Shown here piece after piece: positions 3,653 through 40,760 of a stretch of 40,760 nt of DNA; position 1 is the stretch's first letter; each line of letters starts with the position of its first letter. Source of the stretch: Clostridia bacterium. GTDB lineage: Bacteria > Bacillota > Clostridia > Oscillospirales > CAG-272. The notes under the pieces were generated by a model that made no database searches, was not told the origin of the DNA, and saw only the letters and a list, made by a program, of their open reading frames with translations. The DNA lies in NCBI GenBank assembly GCA_017428635.1, contig JAFRQK010000013.1, positions 1-40,760 of the forward strand, in the 5' to 3' direction. The translations under genes and the position numbers were made by a program.

Positions 3653-3680
3653 AAAAGATCCCCGAGTCGGGGATCTTTTT
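3653..3680 (+). terminator. Rho-independent terminator after the solute-binding protein
   Basis: Arms GATCCCC (3657-3663) and GGGGATC (3669-3675) around loop GAGTC, with AAAA before and TTTTT after. It belongs to the window-wide family of terminators with a conserved ATCCCC/GGGGAT stem. Confidence 0.9.
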
Positions 3681-3687
3681 CCCGTCA

Positions 3688-3716
3688 TTGACACGCGAGG
3701 CGGCGTATGGTAGACT
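3688..3716 (+). promoter_or_regulatory. Sigma-70 type promoter for the SGNH lipoprotein gene
   Basis: TTGACA (3688-3693), 17-bp spacer ending in TATGG, then TAGACT (3711-3716). It sits 8 bp after the terminator T-run. It shares the exact 17-bp spacing and TRTGG extension with six other promoters in the window. Initiation here rules out the upstream in-frame start at 3707. Confidence 0.8.
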
Positions 3717-3754
3717 TTTACTGCAAGAAAAAAACGGTACAAGACGAGGTAAAT

Positions 3755-5386
3755 ATGCGCACGAATCACTCCCCGCGGCGCGTTCCGCGAATTTTGTCGG
3801 CTGCCGCGCTGATCGCGGCGCTGCTCCTTCTTTTCTCCTCCTGCCGGATCCTGAGATCGGCGGACGGTGAGCAGACGGAAACCGACGTTCGGTCAGAGAC
3901 CGACGTGCAGACAGAGACCGCCGCGCCGACGGAGCCCGAAACGACAGAGACCGAACCGACGGTCCCGGCCGTCGACCGCACGGGGGAAGAGATCTATCGG
4001 GCGCACGGCGAGCTGACACCGGTCAACTACGACTCCCCCGCCCTGCTGCCTCGTACGGCAGACGCGGGGCAGGGGTATATCGACGGCATCACGTTTTTGT
4101 GCGATTCGCCGTTTTACTGGCTGAAACTTTTCGGGCTGCTCTCGGGCGGGTACGACACGACGCAGGTCTGGACGGGTCCCGAAGGCACGATGACGCTCGG
4201 ATTTCTCGACGGATTCGAGATCCTCGATCCCGTCGACGGCGCGCTGCGCACGATCCCCGAGACCGTCGCACTGCGCAGGCCTCCCGTGATAATGATCACC
4301 GTCGGGATCAACGGCGTCGCTCTGTGGTACGAGGCGGAATTCAGGGAAGCGTACGTCCGTCTGATAGACTGGATCAGAACGGCGAGCCCGGACACCGAGA
4401 TCATACTGCAGTCGATCCTGCCGATCGCGCCGTCCTACGCGCACTGGGGAGAGATCACGAACGCCTCGATCACCGAAGCGAACGCGTGGATCCTCGAGAT
4501 CGCGGAAGATCAGGGCCTTCACTACCTCGACACGTTCTCCGCGCTCCTCGGCGAAGACGGAAACATCCGCTCCGATCTCGTTCAGAACGACGGTCTGCAC
4601 GAAAACGAAGAAGGGCTGAAAACGGCGCTCGAATACATACGCACTCACGCCCTGACCGTAAATACGGCAAAAACCGAGACGGCGCCCCCGGCCGCCGACC
4701 GCTCGGGCGAAGAGATCTACGAAAGCCACGGCGAGCTGACGCCCGTCAACTATGACTCCCCCGCCCTGCTGCCGCTAACGGCGGACGCGGGTCAGGGGTA
4801 TATCGACGGGATCACGTTTTTATGCGACTCGCCGTTTTACGCTCTGAAAGTTTTCGAGATGCTTTCGGGCGGGTACGGCACGACGCAGATCTGGACGGGT
4901 CCCGAGGGCACGATGACGCTCGGATATCTCGACGGATTCGAGATCCTCGATCCCTACGACAACTCCCTGCGCACTATCCCCGAGGCCCTCGCGCTGCACA
5001 AACCGCCCGTCCTGATGATCACCCTGGGCATCAACGGCGTCGCGCTGTGGGGCGAGGCGGATTTCAGGGCAGCGTACGTCAAGCTGATCGGCGATATCAG
5101 GGCGGCGAGCCCGGATACCGTGATCCTGACGCAGTCGATCCTGCCGATCTCGCCCGAGTACGTCAACTGGGGAATGTTCACCAACGCCCTGATCACCGAG
5201 GCGAACTCGTGGATCCTCGAGATCTCCGAGCAGTACGGCCTTCATTATCTCGACACCTACTCCGCGCTCGCCGGAGAGGACGGGAACATCCGTCCGGAAT
5301 TCGTTCAGATCGACGGTCTTCACATAAGGCCGGAAGGTCTGGAGGCGGCGCTTTCGTATATCCGCACGCACGCGTACCTGCCCTGA
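3755..5386 (+). CDS. Lipoprotein with two tandem SGNH/GDSL esterase-like domains
   Basis: The start is ATG 3755, placed 38 nt after the -10 box and preceded by GAGGT. Residues 1-30 form a lipoprotein signal (ILSAAALIAALLLLFSSC), followed by a T/E-rich linker (about residues 35-72). Two near-identical domains of 241 residues follow, starting at D74 (DRTGEEIY) and D315 (DRSGEEIY). Each carries an SGNH-like block I (FLCDS, serines 118 and 359), a block III-like ITVGINGV or ITLGINGV, and a block V DGLH (279-282 and 520-523). Known family members are esterases or deacetylases acting on carbohydrates, lipids or peptidoglycan. Block I has CDS rather than GDS, and block III has GING rather than GxND, so activity needs testing. 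A cell-surface carbohydrate deacetylase fits the neighbourhood, but the substrate is inferred. Confidence 0.82.
   Translation: MRTNHSPRRVPRILSAAALIAALLLLFSSCRILRSADGEQTETDVRSETDVQTETAAPTEPETTETEPTVPAVDRTGEEIYRAHGELTPVNYDSPALLPRTADAGQGYIDGITFLCDSPFYWLKLFGLLSGGYDTTQVWTGPEGTMTLGFLDGFEILDPVDGALRTIPETVALRRPPVIMITVGINGVALWYEAEFREAYVRLIDWIRTASPDTEIILQSILPIAPSYAHWGEITNASITEANAWILEIAEDQGLHYLDTFSALLGEDGNIRSDLVQNDGLHENEEGLKTALEYIRTHALTVNTAKTETAPPAADRSGEEIYESHGELTPVNYDSPALLPLTADAGQGYIDGITFLCDSPFYALKVFEMLSGGYGTTQIWTGPEGTMTLGYLDGFEILDPYDNSLRTIPEALALHKPPVLMITLGINGVALWGEADFRAAYVKLIGDIRAASPDTVILTQSILPISPEYVNWGMFTNALITEANSWILEISEQYGLHYLDTYSALAGEDGNIRPEFVQIDGLHIRPEGLEAALSYIRTHAYLP
3974..5383 (+). repeat. In-gene tandem duplication, period 723 bp
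   Basis: GAC codons opening the two DR[TS]GEEIY segments lie at 3974 and 4697, exactly 723 bp or 241 codons apart. The copies share long DNA identity (for example around 4021-4100 and 4744-4823) with mostly conservative changes, pointing to a fairly recent duplication of the whole SGNH domain. Confidence 0.92.
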
Positions 5387-5829: not shown

Positions 5830-5864
5830 ACCACGGCTGTCGGAAACGACTCCGGGGATCTTTC
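5830..5864 (+). terminator. Weak, degenerate terminator before the LRR-SLH gene
   Basis: GTCG-GAAA-CGAC hairpin (around 5839-5850) followed by CCGGGGATCTTTCTTT, which looks like the 3' half of the window's usual terminator family without a good 5' arm. It may be a partly decayed terminator. Confidence 0.4.
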
Positions 5865-5893
5865 TTTACCTTGACGCAGCGATGTGATATAAT
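5865..5893 (+). promoter_or_regulatory. Promoter and 120-nt leader for the LRR-SLH surface protein
   Basis: TTTACC (5865-5870), 17-bp spacer, TATAAT (5888-5893). The transcript leader up to the start codon at 6021 is about 120 nt, longer than for other genes here, and contains small inverted repeats such as CTTCC...GGAAG. No known riboswitch motif was recognised in it. Confidence 0.8.
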
Positions 5894-6020
5894 AGAAAGT
5901 TGAAGTAACCTTACTTGCTTCCGCGGCAAAGGAAGCGTCCCGTCGTTGACGGTCTTCCCGCTGCCGGTAAAAGTTCAATAGCGTTTTCAAAGATATTTTT
6001 CTTACTTGGAGGTCAGCAAA

Positions 6021-8171
6021 ATGAAACGTTTAATCAAACTGTTCTCCCTGATCCTGACGGCGGCGTTTTTGTGCGCGCTGACACCGTCTTTGGTATCCGC
6101 AGCCTCAGGCACGGCGACCGACCCGATCCCGCTTAAAGTGGGCGAAACGGTGACCGTACCCGGCGGCAGCATAAAGTACGTCTCGTTCACCCCGCCCGAG
6201 GACGGAGTGTACACCTTCGACGGAATCGGCACGTGGTACGCCACCCATCCCGAAACGGCGGACGTGAAGATCGTGTACGAAAGCGCGTTCCTCCACGGAG
6301 GGTTCACCTACAAATTCAGAATCGACAGCGTAAACGATACCGAAATCCGGGTACTCGACGAGGGCCGTATTTACTATAACGCCGGGGTATGGGCCGGTCA
6401 TCATTACCTGATCTGGGACTTCGACCCCGATACGGGGACCCTGACGGTCGACAACGGCGAGGGCTACGGCAGAATGGCCAACCTCGGGGAAGATTTCTAT
6501 CCGTGGGATCCGCTTGAGGACGTGATCAAACACGTGAAGATCGGCGAGGGCGTCACAGAGATCGGCGATTACGCTTTCACCGGTATGATCGAGTCTTCTT
6601 CCACCCCGGTCCCCAAGTACGCGGTACTGAATGACGTGACCTTCCCCTCCACGCTCAAACTTATAGGCAGATATTGCTTCGCGCATTGCGGTGCGCTGAC
6701 GTACGTCTCGCCGTTCCCGAAATCCCTCGAGTGCGTCCAGTGGATGGCGTTCTTCGACTGCCCGCTTCTTTCGTCCGCCGTATTTGAGGGGCCGACCGCC
6801 GTTGAGTTCTGCGCCTTCTCGAACTGTCCTAAACTTGAGGACGTTACCGTAAAAGATCCCGGCATGACGGCATTCGGAGTGCACGCCTTCCGCGACACGG
6901 GATGGATCCGCAAACTGGCGGAGGGAAACAAGGGCGCTGCCGTAGTCAACGGCGTGCTCATCGGGGCGTATAAAGCGTGGGACAAGGAGGAGGACGACGG
7001 CGTCTTAGTCATTCCGGGCGGAGTGAAGAAGATCGCTCCGCAGGCGCTTAGCGGTACGACGACCGATCCCGCAGGAGGTGAAGAAGGCACACAGGTCGAC
7101 TGGTATCTTGTTGAGGTCGTCATTCCGGACAGCGTGACAGAGATCGGAAAAGGCGCTTTCAGCAACTGCACCAACCTCGAACGCGTCACGATAGGAAACG
7201 GCGTCACGACGATCCCGAACAGCTGCTTTTCCGACGACTTCGAACTTCGTACGGTAAACTACGGCAAGAACGTCAGCCGTATCGAAGACTATGCGTTCAT
7301 CAATACGTGGCTCCCGGGCGATATCGTGATCCCGGATACCGTCGTTTATATAGGCAGATATGCGTTTCAGCTTTCCGAGATCCCTCTCGGAGCGTCGTGG
7401 ATCTATAACCCCGACGCATTCGGCGGGATCTATGCCGACAAGGAGTACAGACCGAAGGACTTCTCCACCAGAAACGTCGTAATGGGTCCGGCTCTTGCCG
7501 AGATCGGAAAGGACGCCTTCGACGGATGGGAAGACGGTTGGGAAGGCGCGTTCTTCACGATCAAGGGTTACGACGGCACTTACGCAGAGAGCTGGGCGAA
7601 GGAAAACGAATACAACTTTGAATCCCTCGGAAAAGCGCCCGCGGCGTCCCGCACTTTTAAGGACGTTCCGTCGAACGCCTATTACGCCGAAGCCGTCGGC
7701 TGGGCGTTCAGAAGGGGCGTCACCACCGGCACCGACGCAAAGCACTTTTCTCCCGACAATACCTGCACTCGCGGACAGATAGTCACCTTCCTGTGGCGAG
7801 CAGCTGGAGAACCGGAACCCGACGCCTACGACAACCCCTTCAAAGACGTCAAACCGTCGGATTACTTCTACAAGGCGGTGCTCTGGGCGGTCCACAAGGA
7901 GATCACCCTGGGCACGAGCGAGAACAGGTTCAGCCCGAACGCGCCATGCACGCGTGCGCAGTGCGTGACGTTCCTGTGGCGTGCGAAGGGTTCGCCGTAC
8001 GTCGGCTCGGTTTCCTCTTTCTCGGACGTTTCCGTGAACAGTTATTACGCCGACGCCGTCGCGTGGGCGATCAGGAAAGGCGTGACAAACGGGACCGGAA
8101 ACGGTCGGTTCAGCCCGAACGCTCCCTGTACGAGAGCGCAGATCGTGACTTTCCTGTACAGAGCGCAATGA
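6021..8171 (+). CDS. BspA-like leucine-rich repeat protein with three C-terminal SLH repeats
   Basis: The start is ATG 6021 with GGAGGT seven nt upstream. The signal peptide is about residues 1-30 (LIKLFSLILTAAFLCAL...VSA). Residues about 30-165 form an N-terminal beta-rich region (PLKVGETVTVPGGSIKYVSF). Residues about 170-525 contain irregular leucine-rich repeats of the BspA/LRR_5 type (GDYAFTG, IGRYCFAHCG, VTFPSTLKLIG, VVIPDSVTEIGKGAFSNC, IGNGVTTIPNSCF). The last 170 residues hold three SLH repeats, each with a TR-G/A-Q-x-VTFLWRA signature. BspA-like LRRs commonly mediate adhesion to matrix or other cells, and SLH repeats anchor to the cell wall, so a surface adhesin is likely. The SLH units are of a different subtype from those of the beta-helix proteins and sit at the opposite end. 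Confidence 0.88.
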   Translation: MKRLIKLFSLILTAAFLCALTPSLVSAASGTATDPIPLKVGETVTVPGGSIKYVSFTPPEDGVYTFDGIGTWYATHPETADVKIVYESAFLHGGFTYKFRIDSVNDTEIRVLDEGRIYYNAGVWAGHHYLIWDFDPDTGTLTVDNGEGYGRMANLGEDFYPWDPLEDVIKHVKIGEGVTEIGDYAFTGMIESSSTPVPKYAVLNDVTFPSTLKLIGRYCFAHCGALTYVSPFPKSLECVQWMAFFDCPLLSSAVFEGPTAVEFCAFSNCPKLEDVTVKDPGMTAFGVHAFRDTGWIRKLAEGNKGAAVVNGVLIGAYKAWDKEEDDGVLVIPGGVKKIAPQALSGTTTDPAGGEEGTQVDWYLVEVVIPDSVTEIGKGAFSNCTNLERVTIGNGVTTIPNSCFSDDFELRTVNYGKNVSRIEDYAFINTWLPGDIVIPDTVVYIGRYAFQLSEIPLGASWIYNPDAFGGIYADKEYRPKDFSTRNVVMGPALAEIGKDAFDGWEDGWEGAFFTIKGYDGTYAESWAKENEYNFESLGKAPAASRTFKDVPSNAYYAEAVGWAFRRGVTTGTDAKHFSPDNTCTRGQIVTFLWRAAGEPEPDAYDNPFKDVKPSDYFYKAVLWAVHKEITLGTSENRFSPNAPCTRAQCVTFLWRAKGSPYVGSVSSFSDVSVNSYYADAVAWAIRKGVTNGTGNGRFSPNAPCTRAQIVTFLYRAQ

Positions 8172-34384: not shown

Positions 34385-34413
34385 TTGACAACGGGGCATA
34401 ATTGTGATACAAT
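34385..34413 (+). promoter_or_regulatory. Promoter for the toxin-antitoxin operon
   Basis: TTGACA (34385-34390), 17-bp spacer ending TGTGA, TACAAT (34408-34413). It overlaps the 5' end of the longer open frame, which confirms the later antitoxin start. Confidence 0.85.
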
Positions 34414-34438
34414 AATGTCACGAAAGGAGATGTACATT

Positions 34439-34699
34439 ATGCCTCAAATTATTCCGATCAGAGATTTAAAAAAGACGAGCGAGTTGTCTCAAATGTGTAA
34501 AAATGCTACCGAGCCGATCTTTATCACGAAGAACGGTTACGGCGATATGGTTATTATGAGTATGGAAATGTACGAAAAAAAGATGTATATGCTCGACGTA
34601 TATGCGAAGCTTGACGCCGCCGAGGAGCAGGCTCGGCAAGGAAAGGTACTTGACGCCGGTGAAGGCTTGAAGAGTATCAGGGAAAAGTACAATGTATAA
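34439..34699 (+). CDS. Phd/YefM-family antitoxin
   Basis: An 86-residue protein from ATG 34439, with AAAGGAG ten nt upstream and inside a transcript starting near 34420. The N-terminal half (PQIIPIRDLKKTSELSQM, EPIFITKNGYGDMVIMSMEMYE) is the Phd/YefM DNA-binding fold. The C-terminal part (KLDAAEEQARQGKVLDAGEGL) is the helical segment that wraps and blocks the toxin. Antitoxins of this family bind their own promoter. The gene overlaps the toxin start by eight nt, so the two products are made together. Confidence 0.9.
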   Translation: MPQIIPIRDLKKTSELSQMCKNATEPIFITKNGYGDMVIMSMEMYEKKMYMLDVYAKLDAAEEQARQGKVLDAGEGLKSIREKYNV

Positions 34700-35000
34700 G
34701 ATTCTGATCACCGAGCTTGCCGGGAGAGACCTTGACGCGATCGTAGAATACATCGCCGTTCAGTTATCAAATCCGATCGCGGCGGGCGATCTGCTTGACG
34801 AGGTGGACAAATGCTATTCCTACCTTCGCTCAAACCCGTTCATTTATGCCAAGAGCATAGATGCGCGGCTTGAAAAGGAAGGATACCGCAAGGCGTTGAT
34901 CAAAAACTATATTCTTTTCTTCAAGGTATTTGAGAACGAGAAAAAGGTAATCGTTTACCGTATCATATACGGTGCAAGAGACTATCAAAAACTTCTGTAA
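34692..35000 (+). CDS. ParE/RelE-family toxin
   Basis: A 102-residue protein overlapping the antitoxin end. The motif set of the ParE/RelE fold is visible: YKILITELAGRDLDAIVEYIAVQL, LLDEVDKCYSYLRSNP, GYRKALIKNYILFFKVFENEKKVIVYRIIYGARDYQKLL. ParE members inhibit gyrase and RelE members cut mRNA at the ribosome. The sequence alone does not settle which, although the long N-terminal helix pair fits ParE better. Together with the antitoxin it forms a type II module that could stabilise this accessory region. Confidence 0.88.
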   Translation: MYKILITELAGRDLDAIVEYIAVQLSNPIAAGDLLDEVDKCYSYLRSNPFIYAKSIDARLEKEGYRKALIKNYILFFKVFENEKKVIVYRIIYGARDYQKLL

Positions 35001-35182: not shown

Positions 35183-35503
35183 TTATTTCTTTTTCAAATC
35201 CGTGATTCCATCGATTATGGATTTGAGACTTTCGAGTTGCCGGGGTGTCATCCTCCGCATCTTCTCAGAAAGTTCGTTAGCGAGGGTCGGATTTGTGTTA
35301 CTTTCCGTAAAAAATTCTCCCGGCGTCACCTTGAGGTATTCGCAGATATAGTAAAGCCCCTGTATAGACGGCATTGATTTCTGATTCTCGATACGGTTTA
35401 TATAACTCGGGTTTTGTCCTATATCCAATGACATTTCACGCGCTGTTACACCCTTTAACTCGCGCAATTTGGCGAGACGTTTAGCGATTAAATCTTCATA
35501 CAT
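35183..35503 (-). CDS. XRE-family transcriptional repressor
   Basis: A 106-residue protein from ATG 35503. An N-terminal helix-turn-helix of XRE type is clear (IAKRLAKLRELKGVTAREM, SLDIGQNPSYINRIENQKSM, LYYICEYLKVTPGEFF). The last 35 residues (LANELSEKMRRMTPRQLESL) form helices probably used for dimerisation. Such short XRE proteins repress their own and neighbouring promoters. The repeated ATAGGATAT sequences around this gene are likely targets. The GTG codons at 35518 and 35515 are possible starts, but they have no spaced ribosome binding site. Confidence 0.85.
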   Translation of the reverse strand: MYEDLIAKRLAKLRELKGVTAREMSLDIGQNPSYINRIENQKSMPSIQGLYYICEYLKVTPGEFFTESNTNPTLANELSEKMRRMTPRQLESLKSIIDGITDLKKK

Positions 35504-35515
35504 AAGGCATTCCAC

Positions 35516-35613
35516 CACCTATCCTACATTCCATAAGATATTATATGGCATAGTCGTGTCTAATATAGGATATCAGGTGTTTAATTTTTGTCATAATAGG
35601 ATATATAATATCC
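35516..35613. promoter_or_regulatory. XRE/SLOG divergent regulatory region with repeated operator sites
   Basis: ATAGGATAT occurs at 35565-35573 and 35596-35604, with an AGGATA variant near 35520-35526 (minus strand). The site at 35599-35613 is an inverted repeat GGATAT-ATA-ATATCC and covers the TATAAT (35604-35609) likely to drive the SLOG-like gene. A minus-strand TATAAT near 35541-35546 probably drives the XRE gene. Shared operators imply coordinated repression. Confidence 0.72.
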
Positions 35614-35638
35614 CAATTTGCAAGGAGTAGGGCATTTG

Positions 35639-36139
35639 ATGCTTAATTATAATCATTTGTTGGAGATTTTTACTGTTTCGTTCTTCGGGCATCGTTATAT
35701 AGATCGTTTCAGAATGATCGAGGACCGGCTTGAAGAATTGATTATAAAACTGCTCCGGGAACACGAGTACGTTGATTTTCTCGTCGGCAGGAACGGCGAC
35801 TTCGACCAACTTGTTTCAAGTACTATCAAAAGGGTTAAAAGAGAATTCCGTGACGATAACTGTACGCACATTCTGGTTTTGCCGTATAACTCCGCCGAGT
35901 TTCAGAATAATGATGACAGCTTTGCTGAGTATTACGACGAGATCGAGATTTGCCCGGAGTCTCACGCCGCGCATTTCAAAGCTGCTATGCAGATCCGAAA
36001 CAGGCGCATGGTCGACCGCTCTGATCTTATAGTGTGCTATGTCGAACATAACTCCGGCGGCGCATATCAAAGTATGACATATGCCGCAAAGCAGCAGAAG
36101 CAAATCATTAATATAGCGGTTGATCCTGTGACACATTAG
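35639..36139 (+). CDS. SLOG-like (Rossmann, DUF1273-type) nucleotide-binding protein
   Basis: A 166-residue protein from ATG 35639 with AAGGAG eleven nt upstream. Motifs of the SLOG/DUF1273 Rossmann group are present: FTVSFFGHRYID, VDFLVGRNGDFDQLV, CTHILVLPY and MVDRSDLIVCYVEHNSGGAYQSM. Family members bind nucleotides or nucleotide-derived ligands, and some act as sensors in defence or stress systems. The exact role is unknown. It is divergent from an XRE repressor, and the pair sits in AT-rich accessory DNA beside a toxin-antitoxin module, suggesting horizontal origin. Confidence 0.75.
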   Translation: MLNYNHLLEIFTVSFFGHRYIDRFRMIEDRLEELIIKLLREHEYVDFLVGRNGDFDQLVSSTIKRVKREFRDDNCTHILVLPYNSAEFQNNDDSFAEYYDEIEICPESHAAHFKAAMQIRNRRMVDRSDLIVCYVEHNSGGAYQSMTYAAKQQKQIINIAVDPVTH

Positions 36140-36233
36140 GAGTTTGTTGATAAAAAAATATGCATTACAGGCGATTAAATCGAGTCTATTATTTATGTTT
36201 TATAAATTTTCTTTTACATTACTTTGTAACACA

Positions 36234-36261
36234 TTGACTTTTGAACGGATTTAGATATAAT
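36234..36261 (+). promoter_or_regulatory. Promoter for the structured leader and CHAP-LRR gene
   Basis: TTGACT (36234-36239), 16-bp spacer, TATAAT (36256-36261). The predicted start, near 36267, coincides with the first base pairs of the long closing helix of the leader RNA. Confidence 0.75.
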
Positions 36262-36265
36262 ATAA

Positions 36266-36510
36266 TTACCACATTTCTTTTCAATCCCAGTCGGGAACGT
36301 ATAATCAAAAAGTATATTTGATTCTTTTTGCCTGCTCGATTATCAAGTCACCCAAGGGGCATAATTCAAGGTAGAATTATGTCCAATCGCCTTTTACGAG
36401 GTCCCTTGGTGGCTATCGAGTAGGAGTGAAAAGAAGTGTGGTAACTTTCGATTGCGACATGTTCTATATTTGCCGTCGGTCGAAAGATCGGCGGCATCTT
36501 ACTTTTATTT
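36266..36510 (+). ncRNA. Structured leader RNA or small ncRNA, class not identified
   Basis: An 18-bp helix pairs 36266-36283 with 36427-36444 (one G-U pair). Inside it lie the hairpin TCCC-AGTC-GGGA (36285-36296), two mutually exclusive hairpins (AATCAAA/TTTGATT at 36303-36323 or CAAAAAG/CTTTTTG at 36306-36330), a 10-bp helix (36331-36340 with 36415-36424), a 7-bp helix (CCAAGGG 36352-36358 with CCCTTGG 36403-36409) and a 9-bp hairpin with loop AAGGTA (36359-36382). A separate hairpin GCCGTCGGTC-GAAA-GATCGGCGGC (36472-36495), followed by T-rich sequence, could terminate transcription before the gene. The layout fits a regulatory leader or an independent small RNA. I did not recognise a known class. 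Confidence 0.7.
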
Positions 36511-36539
36511 GATTTTTAATTTTTAGGTGGGAATACAAG

Positions 36540-39500
36540 ATGAAAAAGAGATTTTTATCAATTCTTTTGACACTATCACTTTTGTTAACTTTTTTGCCGA
36601 CGCTACCTTTAACAGCATATGCAGTGGGAAACTATGGTGTAAACCTTGATTCGGACGCATATTATTCTTACACTAATCCGTTTTATTCAGTCGTTTTGCG
36701 AACAGGGCAGGAACAGTGTACATGGTATTGCTGGGGAAGAGCCTATGAACTGTTTGGGATTGATTTACCGTACAGAGGAAACGCGAACACCTGGAATTAT
36801 TCTTCGGGGAGCCTGATATATGATTCGACGCCGGCTGCACATTCAATTGCCGTATGGACATCCGGAGATCCCGGTCATGTGGCTTATGTTGAAGCTATTG
36901 AGGGCGATATAATTTATCTAACCGAAGCTAATCTTGATAACTGTGATTATACCGAGGGGTATCAGAATACTACTACCGGTTATTATGTGAATACAAGCGG
37001 AAACCTTTCATTTGATACCTGGAAAAACAGATCGACGCCAGACGGCTATATTCATCTTCCTATCATAGACAGCGGCACCTGTGGAAACAGTGTTAGCTGG
37101 GCGCTGACCTCCGACGGCGTTTTTTCGGTTTTCGGTTCCGGAGCTATGAACGATTACGAGGCATATAACGAAATGCCTTGGTATGATCATCTTGACGCAA
37201 TCGATAAAGTCATCATAAGCAACGGTATCACACACACGGGTGACGGTGCGTTTGACGGGTGCACAAACCTTAAAGAAATCAAACTGTCAAATACGATAGA
37301 AACTATGGGTTCATCGTTTACCCGGTGCTACGGTCTGGAAAGTGTCACGATTCCATACGGTGTAAAAGAACTAAGGGGAACGTTTGCGAGATGTTTTAAT
37401 CTCAAAGAAGTAACACTGCCTGACAGCCTTTTGAATATCGGAGACAGTACTTTTAATAATTGTCGGAGTTTAAAAACCATTACCATTCCAGACGGAGTTA
37501 CGGAATTTGGAAGCGCTACTTTTTCCGAAAGTGCCATTGAAAGCATTATGATACCGAATAATGTGACAGAAATTGGTGACGATTGTTTTTCACGGTGTAC
37601 AAATCTTTCGCACATTTCTCTGCCGAACAACATAACGCATATCAAATATCACACATTCGGGTATTGCAGTAATCTTTCAAGTGTCGTGATCCCGAACAGC
37701 GTTACTTACATAGACAGAGACGCATTCTGTTACTGCATCGGATTGAAAAGAATAACAATCCCCGACGGTATACCTTCTATTGGAGGAGGGACTTTTGAAG
37801 GATGTTCAGATTTAATCAGTGTGAATCTTCCGTCAAGCATTACTAAAGTTGAAGGATCTGCTTTTAACTATTGCGATAGTCTTATAGAGGTTTTTTACAG
37901 AGGTTCGCGTTTAGAATGGGAAGCAACTGCTATCGGAGAATATAACGCCCCGTTAGCAGACGCTGTAATCCACTATAATTATTTCGTTTCGGACGATATT
38001 GATACAAATGATGAAAATGTTTCTGAAGGAATCAGCGTAACTGATGCATTTTCTAAAGCAAAAGAGAATAATCGTGCAGTCACAATTAATTCAGACTCCT
38101 CCGTGATCGTATTTGACAGTAACGCCGTAAATCAAATAAGCGGACAGAATGTTGTATTTAAGATGGATTACGCACAAGGTGACGTTGATGACGCAGAGCT
38201 TGTTATGAATATTCATCTCGACGGGGCGACGTTTGAAAAAGGGTTTGCTAAAGTAACGACTGTCTTTGAAAAAACAGCACCCGACGGCAAAACCGCAAAG
38301 CTTTATTACATTGATAATGCAGGACATATGACGGATATGCACGCTGATTTTGAGGATAACAAAGTGTCGTTTGTTACTTCTCATTTCTCCACTTTTGCTG
38401 TAATATTTGTCGATGAACTCTGTCCGCAAGGACATACTCCTGATGTAAAAGTAATAGAAAATGAAGTCGCGCCAACCTGCGAAATTGACGGTAAATACGA
38501 CGAGGTAGTATATTGTTCCATCTGTCACACCGAACTAAGCCGTGAAATCTCGATCGTTCCCGCTATCGGTCACGATTGGAATGAAGGAACGGTTACAACT
38601 CCCGCAACCTGTACGACGGATGGCATAAGAACATATACTTGCAAGCATGACGCAAGCCATACGTATACGGAAGCGATTTCTGCGACGGGTCATACCCCTG
38701 CGTCTGCCGTAATAGAGAATGAAACGGCGGCAACTTGTGAAGTTAACGGCAGCTACGATGAAGTCGTCTATTGTTCCGTCTGCCACGCCGAAATCAGCCG
38801 TGAGACTACGACAGTACCCGCTATCGGTCACGATTGGGACAAAGGGACGGTTACAACTCCCGCAACCTGTACGATGGACGGCGTAAGAACGCATACTTGC
38901 AAGCATGACGCAAGCCATACGTATACCGAAGCGATACCCGCAACCGGACATACCCCGGCAGAAGCAGTAAGAGAAAACGAAGTTGCCCCTACCTGTTCTA
39001 CCGCAGGAAGTTATGACGAAGTCGTATACTGTTCTGTTTGCCATGAAGAAGTCAGCAGAGAACAAAAAACGATTCCGATTGATGAGGATGCGCACGATTG
39101 GGGCGAGTGGATACAAACCAAAGCACCCACCGAAACGGAACCCGGCGAAGAAACCCGCACCTGCAAGAACGATCCGAGCCATACCGAGACGAGAGACATA
39201 CCCGCTCTCGGTCCGTCACAGGTTGAACTCTCATTCCTTGATGACGAAGTCATAATAGTCGTTCCTAACAGTGCAACACCAGACGGATCCGAATTTGATG
39301 TGCAAAAGATCGTTCCACCTCCGGCAGAGGTCGTGGAAAAAGTCAAAGAGCAAATGGGTGCTTCTTCCGAAGTTCTTGCCTATTATGAAGTCAGATTGAC
39401 CGCCTCCGACGGCTCGTCGATCATACACCTTGACGGCGAAATCACGATCAAGGTCAAGATGCCGGAGCAGTACGTCGGAAGCAAATGTGTACGGATTCTT

Positions 39501-39596
39501 CAGGAAGACGAAACCGGGAAACTGATTGTTATGGAGTCCTGGTGGGAAGGCGAATACCTTTGCTATAAAACGGATTGGCTTGAGATTTATGACTAA
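36540..39596 (+). CDS. Secreted CHAP-domain, leucine-rich-repeat protein with CxxC repeats
   Basis: A 1018-residue protein with AGGTGGG nine nt before ATG. The signal peptide is residues 1-28. A CHAP domain (about 35-175) has the probable catalytic cysteine C60 (EQCTWYCWGRA) and histidine H113 (DPGHVAYVEA), with E129/N131 as further candidates. CHAP enzymes cleave peptidoglycan peptide bonds. BspA-like LRRs fill about 200-470 (VIISNGITHTGDGAFDGC, ITIPDGVTEFGSATFSES). A beta-rich domain lies at about 495-635, followed by three repeats of 75-80 residues, each with VVYCSxCHxE and TYTCKHDASHTYTE-type CxxC pairs, possibly metal-binding. The last 100 residues form a charged beta domain. No SLH or LPxTG anchor is seen. 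The gene is AT-richer than the first 34 kb and may be acquired. Confidence 0.85.
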   Translation: MKKRFLSILLTLSLLLTFLPTLPLTAYAVGNYGVNLDSDAYYSYTNPFYSVVLRTGQEQCTWYCWGRAYELFGIDLPYRGNANTWNYSSGSLIYDSTPAAHSIAVWTSGDPGHVAYVEAIEGDIIYLTEANLDNCDYTEGYQNTTTGYYVNTSGNLSFDTWKNRSTPDGYIHLPIIDSGTCGNSVSWALTSDGVFSVFGSGAMNDYEAYNEMPWYDHLDAIDKVIISNGITHTGDGAFDGCTNLKEIKLSNTIETMGSSFTRCYGLESVTIPYGVKELRGTFARCFNLKEVTLPDSLLNIGDSTFNNCRSLKTITIPDGVTEFGSATFSESAIESIMIPNNVTEIGDDCFSRCTNLSHISLPNNITHIKYHTFGYCSNLSSVVIPNSVTYIDRDAFCYCIGLKRITIPDGIPSIGGGTFEGCSDLISVNLPSSITKVEGSAFNYCDSLIEVFYRGSRLEWEATAIGEYNAPLADAVIHYNYFVSDDIDTNDENVSEGISVTDAFSKAKENNRAVTINSDSSVIVFDSNAVNQISGQNVVFKMDYAQGDVDDAELVMNIHLDGATFEKGFAKVTTVFEKTAPDGKTAKLYYIDNAGHMTDMHADFEDNKVSFVTSHFSTFAVIFVDELCPQGHTPDVKVIENEVAPTCEIDGKYDEVVYCSICHTELSREISIVPAIGHDWNEGTVTTPATCTTDGIRTYTCKHDASHTYTEAISATGHTPASAVIENETAATCEVNGSYDEVVYCSVCHAEISRETTTVPAIGHDWDKGTVTTPATCTMDGVRTHTCKHDASHTYTEAIPATGHTPAEAVRENEVAPTCSTAGSYDEVVYCSVCHEEVSREQKTIPIDEDAHDWGEWIQTKAPTETEPGEETRTCKNDPSHTETRDIPALGPSQVELSFLDDEVIIVVPNSATPDGSEFDVQKIVPPPAEVVEKVKEQMGASSEVLAYYEVRLTASDGSSIIHLDGEITIKVKMPEQYVGSKCVRILQEDETGKLIVMESWWEGEYLCYKTDWLEIYD

Positions 39597-39683: not shown

Positions 39684-39711
39684 AAAAATCACAAGTGTGC
39701 TCTTGATTTTT
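39684..39711 (+). terminator. Terminator after the CHAP-LRR gene
   Basis: AAAAATC (39684-39690) and AAG (39693-39695) pair with CTT (39702-39704) and GATTTTT (39705-39711). A separate larger hairpin (CTTTTAT/ATAAAAG enclosing GTGCGGC/GCCGCGC) lies at about 39600-39658. Confidence 0.7.
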
Positions 39712-39731
39712 CTAAAAAACGTGGGTAATAT
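39703..39731 (+). promoter_or_regulatory. Promoter for the structured region at the right end
   Basis: TTGATT (39703-39708), 17-bp spacer ending GTGGG, TAATAT (39726-39731). The -35 box lies inside the 3' arm of the preceding terminator, as elsewhere in the window. Confidence 0.6.
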
Positions 39732-39740
39732 TTATATAGA

Positions 39741-39858
39741 GGCAGCAGAAGTATAATTGAATGTAGATACCGTTGACGTATATGCCTGAATTGATTTGAA
39801 CGGTAAGGGCGCCTGTTATGTCAACGGTATCTTTTTGTATATGTACACTTCTGCCGCC
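39741..39858. repeat. 118-bp element with near-perfect terminal inverted repeats, MITE-like or RNA domain
   Basis: GGCAGCAGAAGT (39741-39752) pairs with ACTTCTGCCGCC (39847-39858) with one mismatch. Inside, GATACCGTTGAC (39766-39777) pairs perfectly with GTCAACGGTATC (39820-39831), which is followed by TTTTT. The inner stem could be a terminator. The whole could be a small mobile element remnant or the 5' domain of the RNA that follows. Confidence 0.8.
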
Positions 39859-39864
39859 CGATCT

Positions 39865-40760
39865 CCAACCTGTGTTTTTGTTCTCTCGTAGATGAGAGCA
39901 ACAGGCTTCGCGCCTGTTCGGTCAAGTCTGCGGGATGCAAAATATAATTCGATAAAGGAAGGAGAGTTTTTAATTCGGAACAGTTGCAGTCGAGTAACTG
40001 CAGCCGGGGGAAACAAAGTGCCGGGAACGGATAATGGCAATCCGTTCAGTACGAAAATGAAAGGCACTCACAATCTCTGTACGAAACAGAGTTCTTTACA
40101 GAAGAAGAGATTTCGTTCAGAGATAAACAAGGGTCATCCAAGCCGCCAAGGGATGACTGTGGTACTTCGCAAAAACCTTCGTGGTTAGCGAAACCTGCGG
40201 CAAACGTTCGCGGCGGACGTAACGAAAATTAGGTTGACAATCAGACGCCGCTCTCTCCCCGTGGAGAACCTCATGACGAAAATGAAGTGATGCGAGGTAC
40301 ACCGGGACGCCGGGGATTTGCGTACGAAAATCTCTATACAGCCGGTCTATTTGTCTTACGGCTGCGAAGGCTTCTGACCAAAGCCAACCAAGGAACAGAC
40401 AGAGAGGTATTCCTTGCCGCCTCCCAAAGAAGCTGTGAGGTCGAACGTTCCCGTGGGTTAATCGATAATGAAACCCTATGCCGAGCAGAACGCTTATCCT
40501 TTTTAAGCGTTCGCGCGTCCCTGTGAGGACGTGAAGGCATCGCACGGTCTGCCCGCCGTGGATCGGCAAAGCAGACGGCTGTCCTCGAGACAGCTATGTG
40601 TATGGTGGCGTCATTTGCCACCGTCGTACTCAACACGTTTAAGGGGAAATTGAATATGACCGGCTCTTTGATATGACGAAGGATCGTCGGTTCGAAATGA
40701 TATGAACTCTCTCTTCGAGATGATGTATGACTATCATTTTGGACGCGGAGCCGTTTATAT
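39865..40760 (+). ncRNA. Candidate large structured non-coding RNA, extent uncertain
   Basis: About 0.9 kb without a convincing gene but with dense hairpins, among them CTCTC/GAGAG (39884-39900), ACAGGC/GCCTGT (39900-39916), TGCAGT/ACTGCA (39986-40003), GAACGGAT/ATCCGTTC (40024-40046), CTCTGT/ACAGAG (40075-40091), GTCATCC/GGATGAC (40133-40157), ACCTC/GAGGT (40267-40297), CAGCCG/CGGCTG (40339-40364), GAACGCTTA/TAAGCGTTC (40488-40512), CGTCC/GGACG (40517-40532), GTCTGC/GCAGAC (40549-40574), GCTGTC/GACAGC (40577-40593) and GGTGGC/GCCACC (40604-40622). ACGAAA recurs at five places. Open frames in this stretch have no recognisable domains. Strand is inferred from the upstream promoter. Size is in the range of ROOL or GOLLD RNAs, or a group II intron 5' part, but I cannot assign it. 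Confidence 0.6.

Follow-up and report, generated by a model that had tools for sequence, protein, structure and literature searches.

The window analysed here, an entire contig of 40,760 nucleotides from a Clostridia bacterium, ends on the right in a densely folded stretch, and the question is what this stretch encodes. A sequence-only reading had proposed a large, ornate non-coding RNA of about 0.9 kb, and had named an Rfam cmscan and a covariation analysis as ways of checking it. The closely packed stem-loops were confirmed: the minimum-energy fold of 39865-40760 on the plus strand contains 22 hairpin loops, 19 of them on stems of 4 or more pairs, and has a z-score of −5.70 (−4.40 for the reverse strand; 20 dinucleotide shuffles each). 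When 27 segments of 900 nt across the window were compared (12 shuffles each), the two lowest values were those of 39741-40640 (z = −6.54) and 39861-40760 (z = −6.29); the other 25 had a mean of −1.29 (sd 1.45). The proposed size turned out to be a lower bound only, since the RNA starts further left, at about 39740 rather than 39865, and the contig stops at 40760, 1.02 kb into the RNA.

The recurrence of ACGAAA was also verified, with copies at 40051, 40081, 40222, 40276 and 40324 (0-3 bases from the positions first given). These five copies in 39741-40665 compare with 0.62 expected, a count reached by 1 of 2000 shuffles, and all except the one at 40081 extend to ACGAAAA. The absence of a credible gene was borne out as well: among reading frames of at least 30 aa, the longest in the RNA stretch are of 98 aa (plus strand) and 150 aa (minus strand), with an additional 141-aa frame on the minus strand open at the contig end, and four ORFs, including a 100-aa part of this open frame, gave no Pfam match at E ≤ 1. 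The claim of a correctly spaced upstream promoter held in part; such a site is present but weak, a standard promoter scan that needs 9/12 matches found none upstream of the window RNA, and our own script listed two other 8/12 sites for the RNA stretch. The Rfam scan gave no match of the window to any of the 4227 models of Rfam 15 at the gathering threshold. At E ≤ 10 only matches far below threshold appeared, and ROOL, GOLLD, OLE, HEARO and group II introns, which we take to be included among these models, were absent from them. What stands of the original proposal is a large structured RNA with no Rfam family; what does not is a free-standing RNA of 0.9 kb. The parts that we distinguish, all on the plus strand, are the following.

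39703..39731, plus: weak promoter-like site TTGATT-17-TAATAT (8/12 by our own count); transcription would start at about 39740
39741..39858, plus: 5' hairpin domain, intrinsic-terminator-like, with nested arms 39741-39755/39844-39858 and 39765-39780/39817-39832 and a T-run at 39832-39836 (from inverted repeats, the sequence and the relatives' hairpins)
39865..40445, plus: central structured domain with four ACGAAAA (40051, 40222, 40276, 40324) (from fold z-scores and motif counts)
40450..40630, plus: proposed 3' core, Pc to Ph and then CGTACTCAAC (from predicted pairing and the match to covariance model R1, described below)
40455-40459/40472-40476, plus: hairpin Pc (predicted pairing)
40478-40482/40536-40540, plus: three-way junction stem Pd (predicted pairing)
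40489-40496/40504-40511, plus: Pd1, inside the Pd junction (predicted pairing)
40517-40520/40527-40530, plus: Pd2, inside the Pd junction (predicted pairing)
40547-40552/40571-40576, plus: Pf (predicted pairing)
40579-40583/40589-40593, plus: Pg (predicted pairing)
40604-40609/40617-40622, plus: Ph (predicted pairing)
40654..40760, plus: start of an array of 24-nt repeats of the GAAATGATATATGACTNTC type (from blastn to the arrays of loci L011 and L022), ending in the first arm of a conserved hairpin (GGAGCCGTTTATAT) that is severed by the contig end

With the window folded alone, the helices Pc, Pd/Pd1/Pd2, Pf, Pg and Ph had pairing probabilities of 0.67-1.00, and the closing helix Pe one of 0.10.

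The left neighbour of the RNA is a gene for a CHAP/leucine-rich-repeat protein (36540-39596). Just before this gene, inspection of positions 36230-36540 by eye shows several long hairpins and a promoter-like site, a possible cis-regulatory RNA; the segment 35700-36599 is a second structured stretch, with the lowest z-score (−5.38) of the other 25, and an Rfam search of 36230-36540 at E ≤ 5 returned one sub-threshold snoRNA match only. Further left lie a divergent XRE-HTH-like gene with a gene that has a sub-cutoff match to the YpsA/SLOG family (35183-36139), and Phd/YefM antitoxin-like and ParE toxin-like genes that form a type II toxin-antitoxin pair (34385-35000). Beside the RNA element of L022 there is a pair similar to the former (identities of 35% and 57%); the other element loci compared showed no such pair.

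Within the genus, blastn with the window RNA found its own genome only, among 12, and there was no match in phages and plasmids. At the family level 8 of 395 genomes, the window's included, gave matches, of which only that of G121 was informative, through the 3' tail (E = 2.4e-4 per genome); six weak matches (L005-L010) were dropped, as they span 20-33 bases and blastn to their loci produced no match above 33 bases. The 24-nt repeat pattern was present in three of the 395 family genomes (the window's, G121 and G050), each time about 350 bases or less from a contig end, and five further matches in the window's genome were discarded because they carried 2 mismatches each and a reversed-pattern control gave two. 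In G121 the array runs into a tyrosine recombinase gene, and in G050 into the start of such a gene. A hairpin common to both led to G466, in which a complete unit occupies the middle of a contig of 94.6 kb (L043); with 1 mismatch allowed, this hairpin pattern occurred in 20 of 394 order genomes, of which G050 and G466 were kept and 18 were dropped for having no blastn match to the element.

The G121 and G466 recombinases share 60% identity, and a profile scan of genome contigs with their alignment yielded 29 loci, namely 20 close ones with 56-100% identity (L045-L063, L073) and nine distant ones with 32-35% identity (L064-L072). A hindgut sample (sheep, goat, deer, buffalo) is named for 11 of the 29, and one locus comes from an isolate, Sporobacter termitidis; the labels Alphaproteobacteria (L053) and Opitutales (L056) may be binning errors. 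When the L050 RNA was used as a DNA query against 388 order genomes (E ≤ 0.001), seven matched; G565, G105 and G476 (L082-L084) were added, while G632 and G736 were dropped, their matches being of only 28 and about 37 bases. This search did not recover the window's genome, so searches of this kind miss divergent members. Large RNAs were found at 12 loci besides the window: L022, L043, L047, L048, L050, L053, L054, L058, L063, L082, L083 and, in part, L084. L055 is on the same contig as L043, and L045 on the same as L011; each was counted once as an RNA or a site, and counts over the 20 close loci use all 20 names.

In these relatives the order is a large RNA of about 0.9-1.2 kb, an array of 24-nt repeats and hairpins, recombination-site-like motifs and the recombinase. 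The tyrosine recombinase gene or its start lies downstream of the large RNA in 10 of the 12. In L043, a small HTH gene (3663-3917) and a promoter are followed by the RNA (about 4000-5190), the array (to about 5690), site motifs (to about 5780) and the recombinase (5849-6802). Among the 10 close loci with at least 2.9 kb of upstream sequence, eight have the large RNA upstream of the recombinase (L047, L048, L050, L053, L054, L055, L058, L063), and the other two (L049, L060) have array and recombinase without it, the array remnant abutting other genes. The units of L083 and L084 are truncated and lack a recombinase of this type after the RNA; on reading the sequence, RNA or array is fused there to the apparent 3' end of a large serine recombinase gene, which suggests a rearrangement by a second mobile element. 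Putative defence-type genes, named from reading their translations, adjoin the elements in L022 (4060-7999) and L060 (3697-5643), and include a DNA cytosine methyltransferase-like protein, ATPases and an RloA/RloB-like pair. RNAs from genomes of two families (f1 and f19) are 75% identical over 1130 aligned bases, which would be in line with horizontal movement. In both relatives tested, the recombinase has matches to PF00589 and to SAM-like N-terminal domains, and the two compared have R181, H292, R295, H324 and Y333 in common, residues that we take to have catalytic roles.

Next to the recombinase, the site consists of the motifs (T)GACGAAAAT and TTTTCGTACACA, with outer copies in direct orientation. 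In 17 of the 20 close loci, TTTTCGTAC, ATTTTCGTC-like and GACGAAAAT motifs lie at most 300 bases upstream of the recombinase (1 mismatch allowed), and in 16 of the 20 there is also a second TTTTCGTAC copy. The motif set is doubled in L057 and absent within 300 bases upstream in L053, L061 and L073. About 640 bases upstream of the L061 recombinase lies an antisense gene resembling methionyl-tRNA synthetase, truncated by the contig end, and no site motif is found; this junction could equally well be an ordinary chromosomal one. In L053, L073 and L082, one antisense gene lies between the upstream site motifs and the recombinase.

L053, 2930-3994, antisense to the recombinase: XRE-HTH protein
L073, 340-2046, antisense to the recombinase: sigma-70-like protein
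L082, 3104-4180, antisense to the recombinase: XRE-HTH protein

Single genes at a fixed site look like gene capture, as judged from their arrangement; all three encode likely regulators, and they could instead be a native part of the system.

The 3' core was aligned over about 190 nt in 11 relatives; L084 was left out, since its contig begins within the core and covers 57 of 192 model positions. The core runs through a hairpin, two three-way junctions with two hairpins each, the extra hairpin Ph and UACUAACC. The covariation sought by the sequence-only reading is present in it. Its 48 pairs are paired in 92.5% of cells, against 35-47% when the structure is slid by 1-3 columns, a comparison that favours the structure because it was drawn from the same alignment. 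Fourteen pairs are altered on both sides, against a shuffle mean of 9.0 and with 0 of 500 shuffles reaching that number, a contrast that the kinship of the sequences favours; the number of further pair types, a less telling measure, was reached by 54 of 500 shuffles. Pc and Pe, the stem closing the second junction, are nearly invariant in the relatives and carry little covariation information, and several core helices include G-U pairs, as expected of RNA. The 12 RNAs (window plus 11 relatives) contain 30 copies of ACGAAAA, where 2.8 are expected and none of 300 shuffles had more than 8, and only two copies in the other direction. Two copies are spaced 47-49 nt apart in 9 of 11 relatives; the window spacings are 54 and 48. 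At the RNA start, a promoter with 11-12 of 12 matches is present in six relatives (L047, L048, L053, L054, L063, L083) and a weak one (9/12) in five (L022, L043, L050, L058, L082). By eye, the promoter is followed by a terminator-like hairpin with a T-rich tail in eight relatives (L043, L047, L048, L053, L054, L058, L063, L083) and by a 5' hairpin with a poorer tail in L022 and L050; L082 is ambiguous.

A known RNA appeared when six of the nine distant recombinase loci were scanned with Rfam: three (L066, L070, L071) carry RF03062, the xerDC RNA, a 126-nt model that Rfam files as Cis-reg. This is the nearest known RNA, and it was missing from the large RNAs that the sequence-only reading had listed. 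The xerDC RNA sits upstream of a xerD/xerC-like recombinase gene and was reportedly described in a 2017 paper; our literature search on xerDC RNA and RF03062 found no account of it. Like the relatives' RNA it precedes a tyrosine recombinase, one that is 32-35% identical to the close ones, and its consensus resembles the relatives' core, with a hairpin, two three-way junctions with two hairpins each and then UACUGACC (a UACU-ACC ending). The most alike endings are GTACTAACCTTTGTTCACAAC in L082 and ATACTGACCTGTTCACAAC in the xerDC-bearing L070. This layout fits the 11 relatives, with UACUAACC where the tail is present, and in the window all of its helices except Pe are predicted. The relatives' RNA differs in its extra hairpin Ph, its total length of about 0.9-1.2 kb and its 24-nt repeat array. 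The xerDC gathering score (72.5 bits) was not reached in the window, L022, L043, L047, L048, L050, L054, L058 or L063. The xerDC model finds neither L082 nor the window even at E ≤ 10, and R1, the model built from the 11 relatives, does not find the xerDC loci at the xerDC position; neither model finds the other's members, and membership in xerDC is therefore not claimed. From layout, ending and the common recombinase, a common origin of the two is the likeliest account, and the window-type RNA seems to be a larger relative of xerDC RNA with no Rfam entry. By eye, L064, L066, L068 and L070 have a terminator-like hairpin and other possible structures several hundred bases upstream of the recombinase, in putative non-coding leaders that ORFs of at least 80 aa overlap. 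What Rfam models as xerDC RNA may form only the 3' end of leaders that are much longer.

Our best guess at the function, which draws on the analogy with xerDC and on the succession of promoter, terminator-like hairpin, RNA and recombinase, is leader control of the recombinase; the cis-regulatory filing of the xerDC RNA at the distant loci speaks for it. Against a simple leader stands the antisense gene between array and recombinase in L053, L073 and L082. The RNA might instead act in trans, either in a ribonucleoprotein with the recombinase, as its partner or scaffold, or as an independent RNA in the manner of ROOL or GOLLD. Its size and elaboration are well above those of usual leaders, six of 11 relatives have strong promoter matches, L053 and L082 retain the RNA despite the antisense gene that separates it from the recombinase, and the RNA contains direct copies of the GACGAAAAT motif also present in the recombinase-adjacent site. 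However, the related xerDC RNA is filed as cis-regulatory, and by eye no terminator is seen between RNA and recombinase gene. We consider a trans role unlikely, but the intervening antisense genes together with the two loci that lack the RNA (L049, L060) leave it real weight.

Whether leader control extends to the window depends on whether its RNA belongs with these RNAs. In blastn against a 3-kb database the tail matches two array regions, that of L011 at E = 1e-9 and that of L022 at E = 7e-8, and 43 bases around the Pc hairpin of L022 match the window at E = 0.004. R1, built without the window, gave a single match on both strands of the window, at 40450-40575 on the plus strand (13.7 bits, E = 0.019). 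R2, a model of the window only, matched the same hairpin in L022 (E = 0.0015) and L054 (E = 0.0022) and missed the other 10 of the 12 RNA-bearing sources. What these matches align is chiefly Pc with its loop (UUAAUCG-UAAUGAAA) and the 5' strand of Pd, most of Pe-Ph being skipped; R1 pairs the window Pd with 40562-40567, unlike the 40536-40540 proposed here.

Several further searches served to gauge these scores. Over 33 loci, R1 matched 13 places, namely its own 11, part of L084 and one in L069 judged to be chance. Of the 395 family genomes, R2 matched 17 at E ≤ 1, its own included; the best other one, in G237 (E = 4.8e-4), falls in ordinary intergenic-looking sequence, as do the next ones, in G086 and G241, and a likely chance match of 22.6 bits among these genomes exceeds the 13.7-17.4 bits of the family links. 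On 12 further element loci, R2 gave just one weak match, elsewhere. A multiple alignment including the window placed its helices out of register and was not used as evidence of homology.

The window RNA could accordingly be unrelated to the relatives' RNAs and share with them the 24-nt repeat tail alone. This is compatible with blastn similarity limited to the tail and the 43 bases at Pc, with a sequence-profile (nhmmer) value of E = 1.3 that lends no support, and with low covariance scores that lie beneath a likely chance match elsewhere and cover little of the core. On the other hand, both models converge on one hairpin, on the right strand and about 200 nt from the common tail, and the predicted helices (which were picked with the relatives' layout in mind) and the ACGAAAA motifs follow the relatives' order. 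We regard an unrelated RNA as quite unlikely. Taken together, the tail, the Pc hairpin with its loop and the orders of helices and motifs make it probable that the window RNA is a member of the recombinase-linked family; it is a divergent one, linked to the relatives by covariance models in both directions, but weakly.

Leader control can then be proposed for the window, tentatively and with slightly less than even confidence: its 1.02 kb of RNA would be the 5' part of a leader controlling a tyrosine recombinase, in an element found mainly in gut Clostridia. The gene beyond the contig end would be such a recombinase; none was found when the window's genome was searched with one relative's recombinase, a search run without a positive control. 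In the relatives, transcription would start at a sigma-A-type promoter and, in most of those inspected, then meet the terminator-like hairpin, where early termination would keep recombinase expression low. Readthrough would yield the full RNA, a large domain ending in the conserved core and then the array, and core and array would govern whether transcription or translation reaches the recombinase gene. We infer transcription, attenuation and control by the RNA from the arrangement of these parts.

A role of the structures as single-stranded DNA folds, comparable to integron attC sites or to recombinase arm-binding sites and conserved at the DNA level, fits the array and the site well (array hairpins and inverted TTTTCGT/ACGAAAA sites adjoin the recombinase, the site is doubled in L057 and single genes sit at it in L053, L073 and L082), but is distinctly unlikely for the large domain, in which G-U occurs among the varying pairs, fold energy and z are lower on the plus than on the minus strand, promoter matches lie at the RNA start and ACGAAAA is nearly unidirectional.

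Leader control remains the preferred reading, and the site beside the recombinase bears on how the element compares with known systems. As in integrons, the relatives combine a tyrosine recombinase, whose domain was found in both recombinases tested, with an adjoining upstream site where single genes sit, transcribed away from the recombinase. The relatives' site motifs differ, being TTTTCGTACACA and GACGAAAAT, and we know of no large RNA in integrons. It is conceivable, but very doubtful, that an integron-like recombinase captures single genes and acts together with a 1-2 kb RNA of the same element that carries copies of the site motifs, as a scaffold or regulator of cassette exchange; if so, the xerDC RNA would be just the visible tip of a class. 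The relatives' elements point to an integron-like platform in gut Clostridia.

ROOL and GOLLD are described as phage- and prophage-encoded, and what the best-known large structured bacterial RNAs do is described as still poorly understood (PMC12286853). Our search of a viral collection gave no match to two array-hairpin patterns or to the recombinase. Large structured RNAs are few in bacteria, and a recombinase as natural partner gene gives a testable hypothesis for this one. Like ROOL, GOLLD and OLE, the RNA described here is large and elaborate; unlike them, it has no Rfam match in the window, and in the relatives it stands ahead of a recombinase gene.
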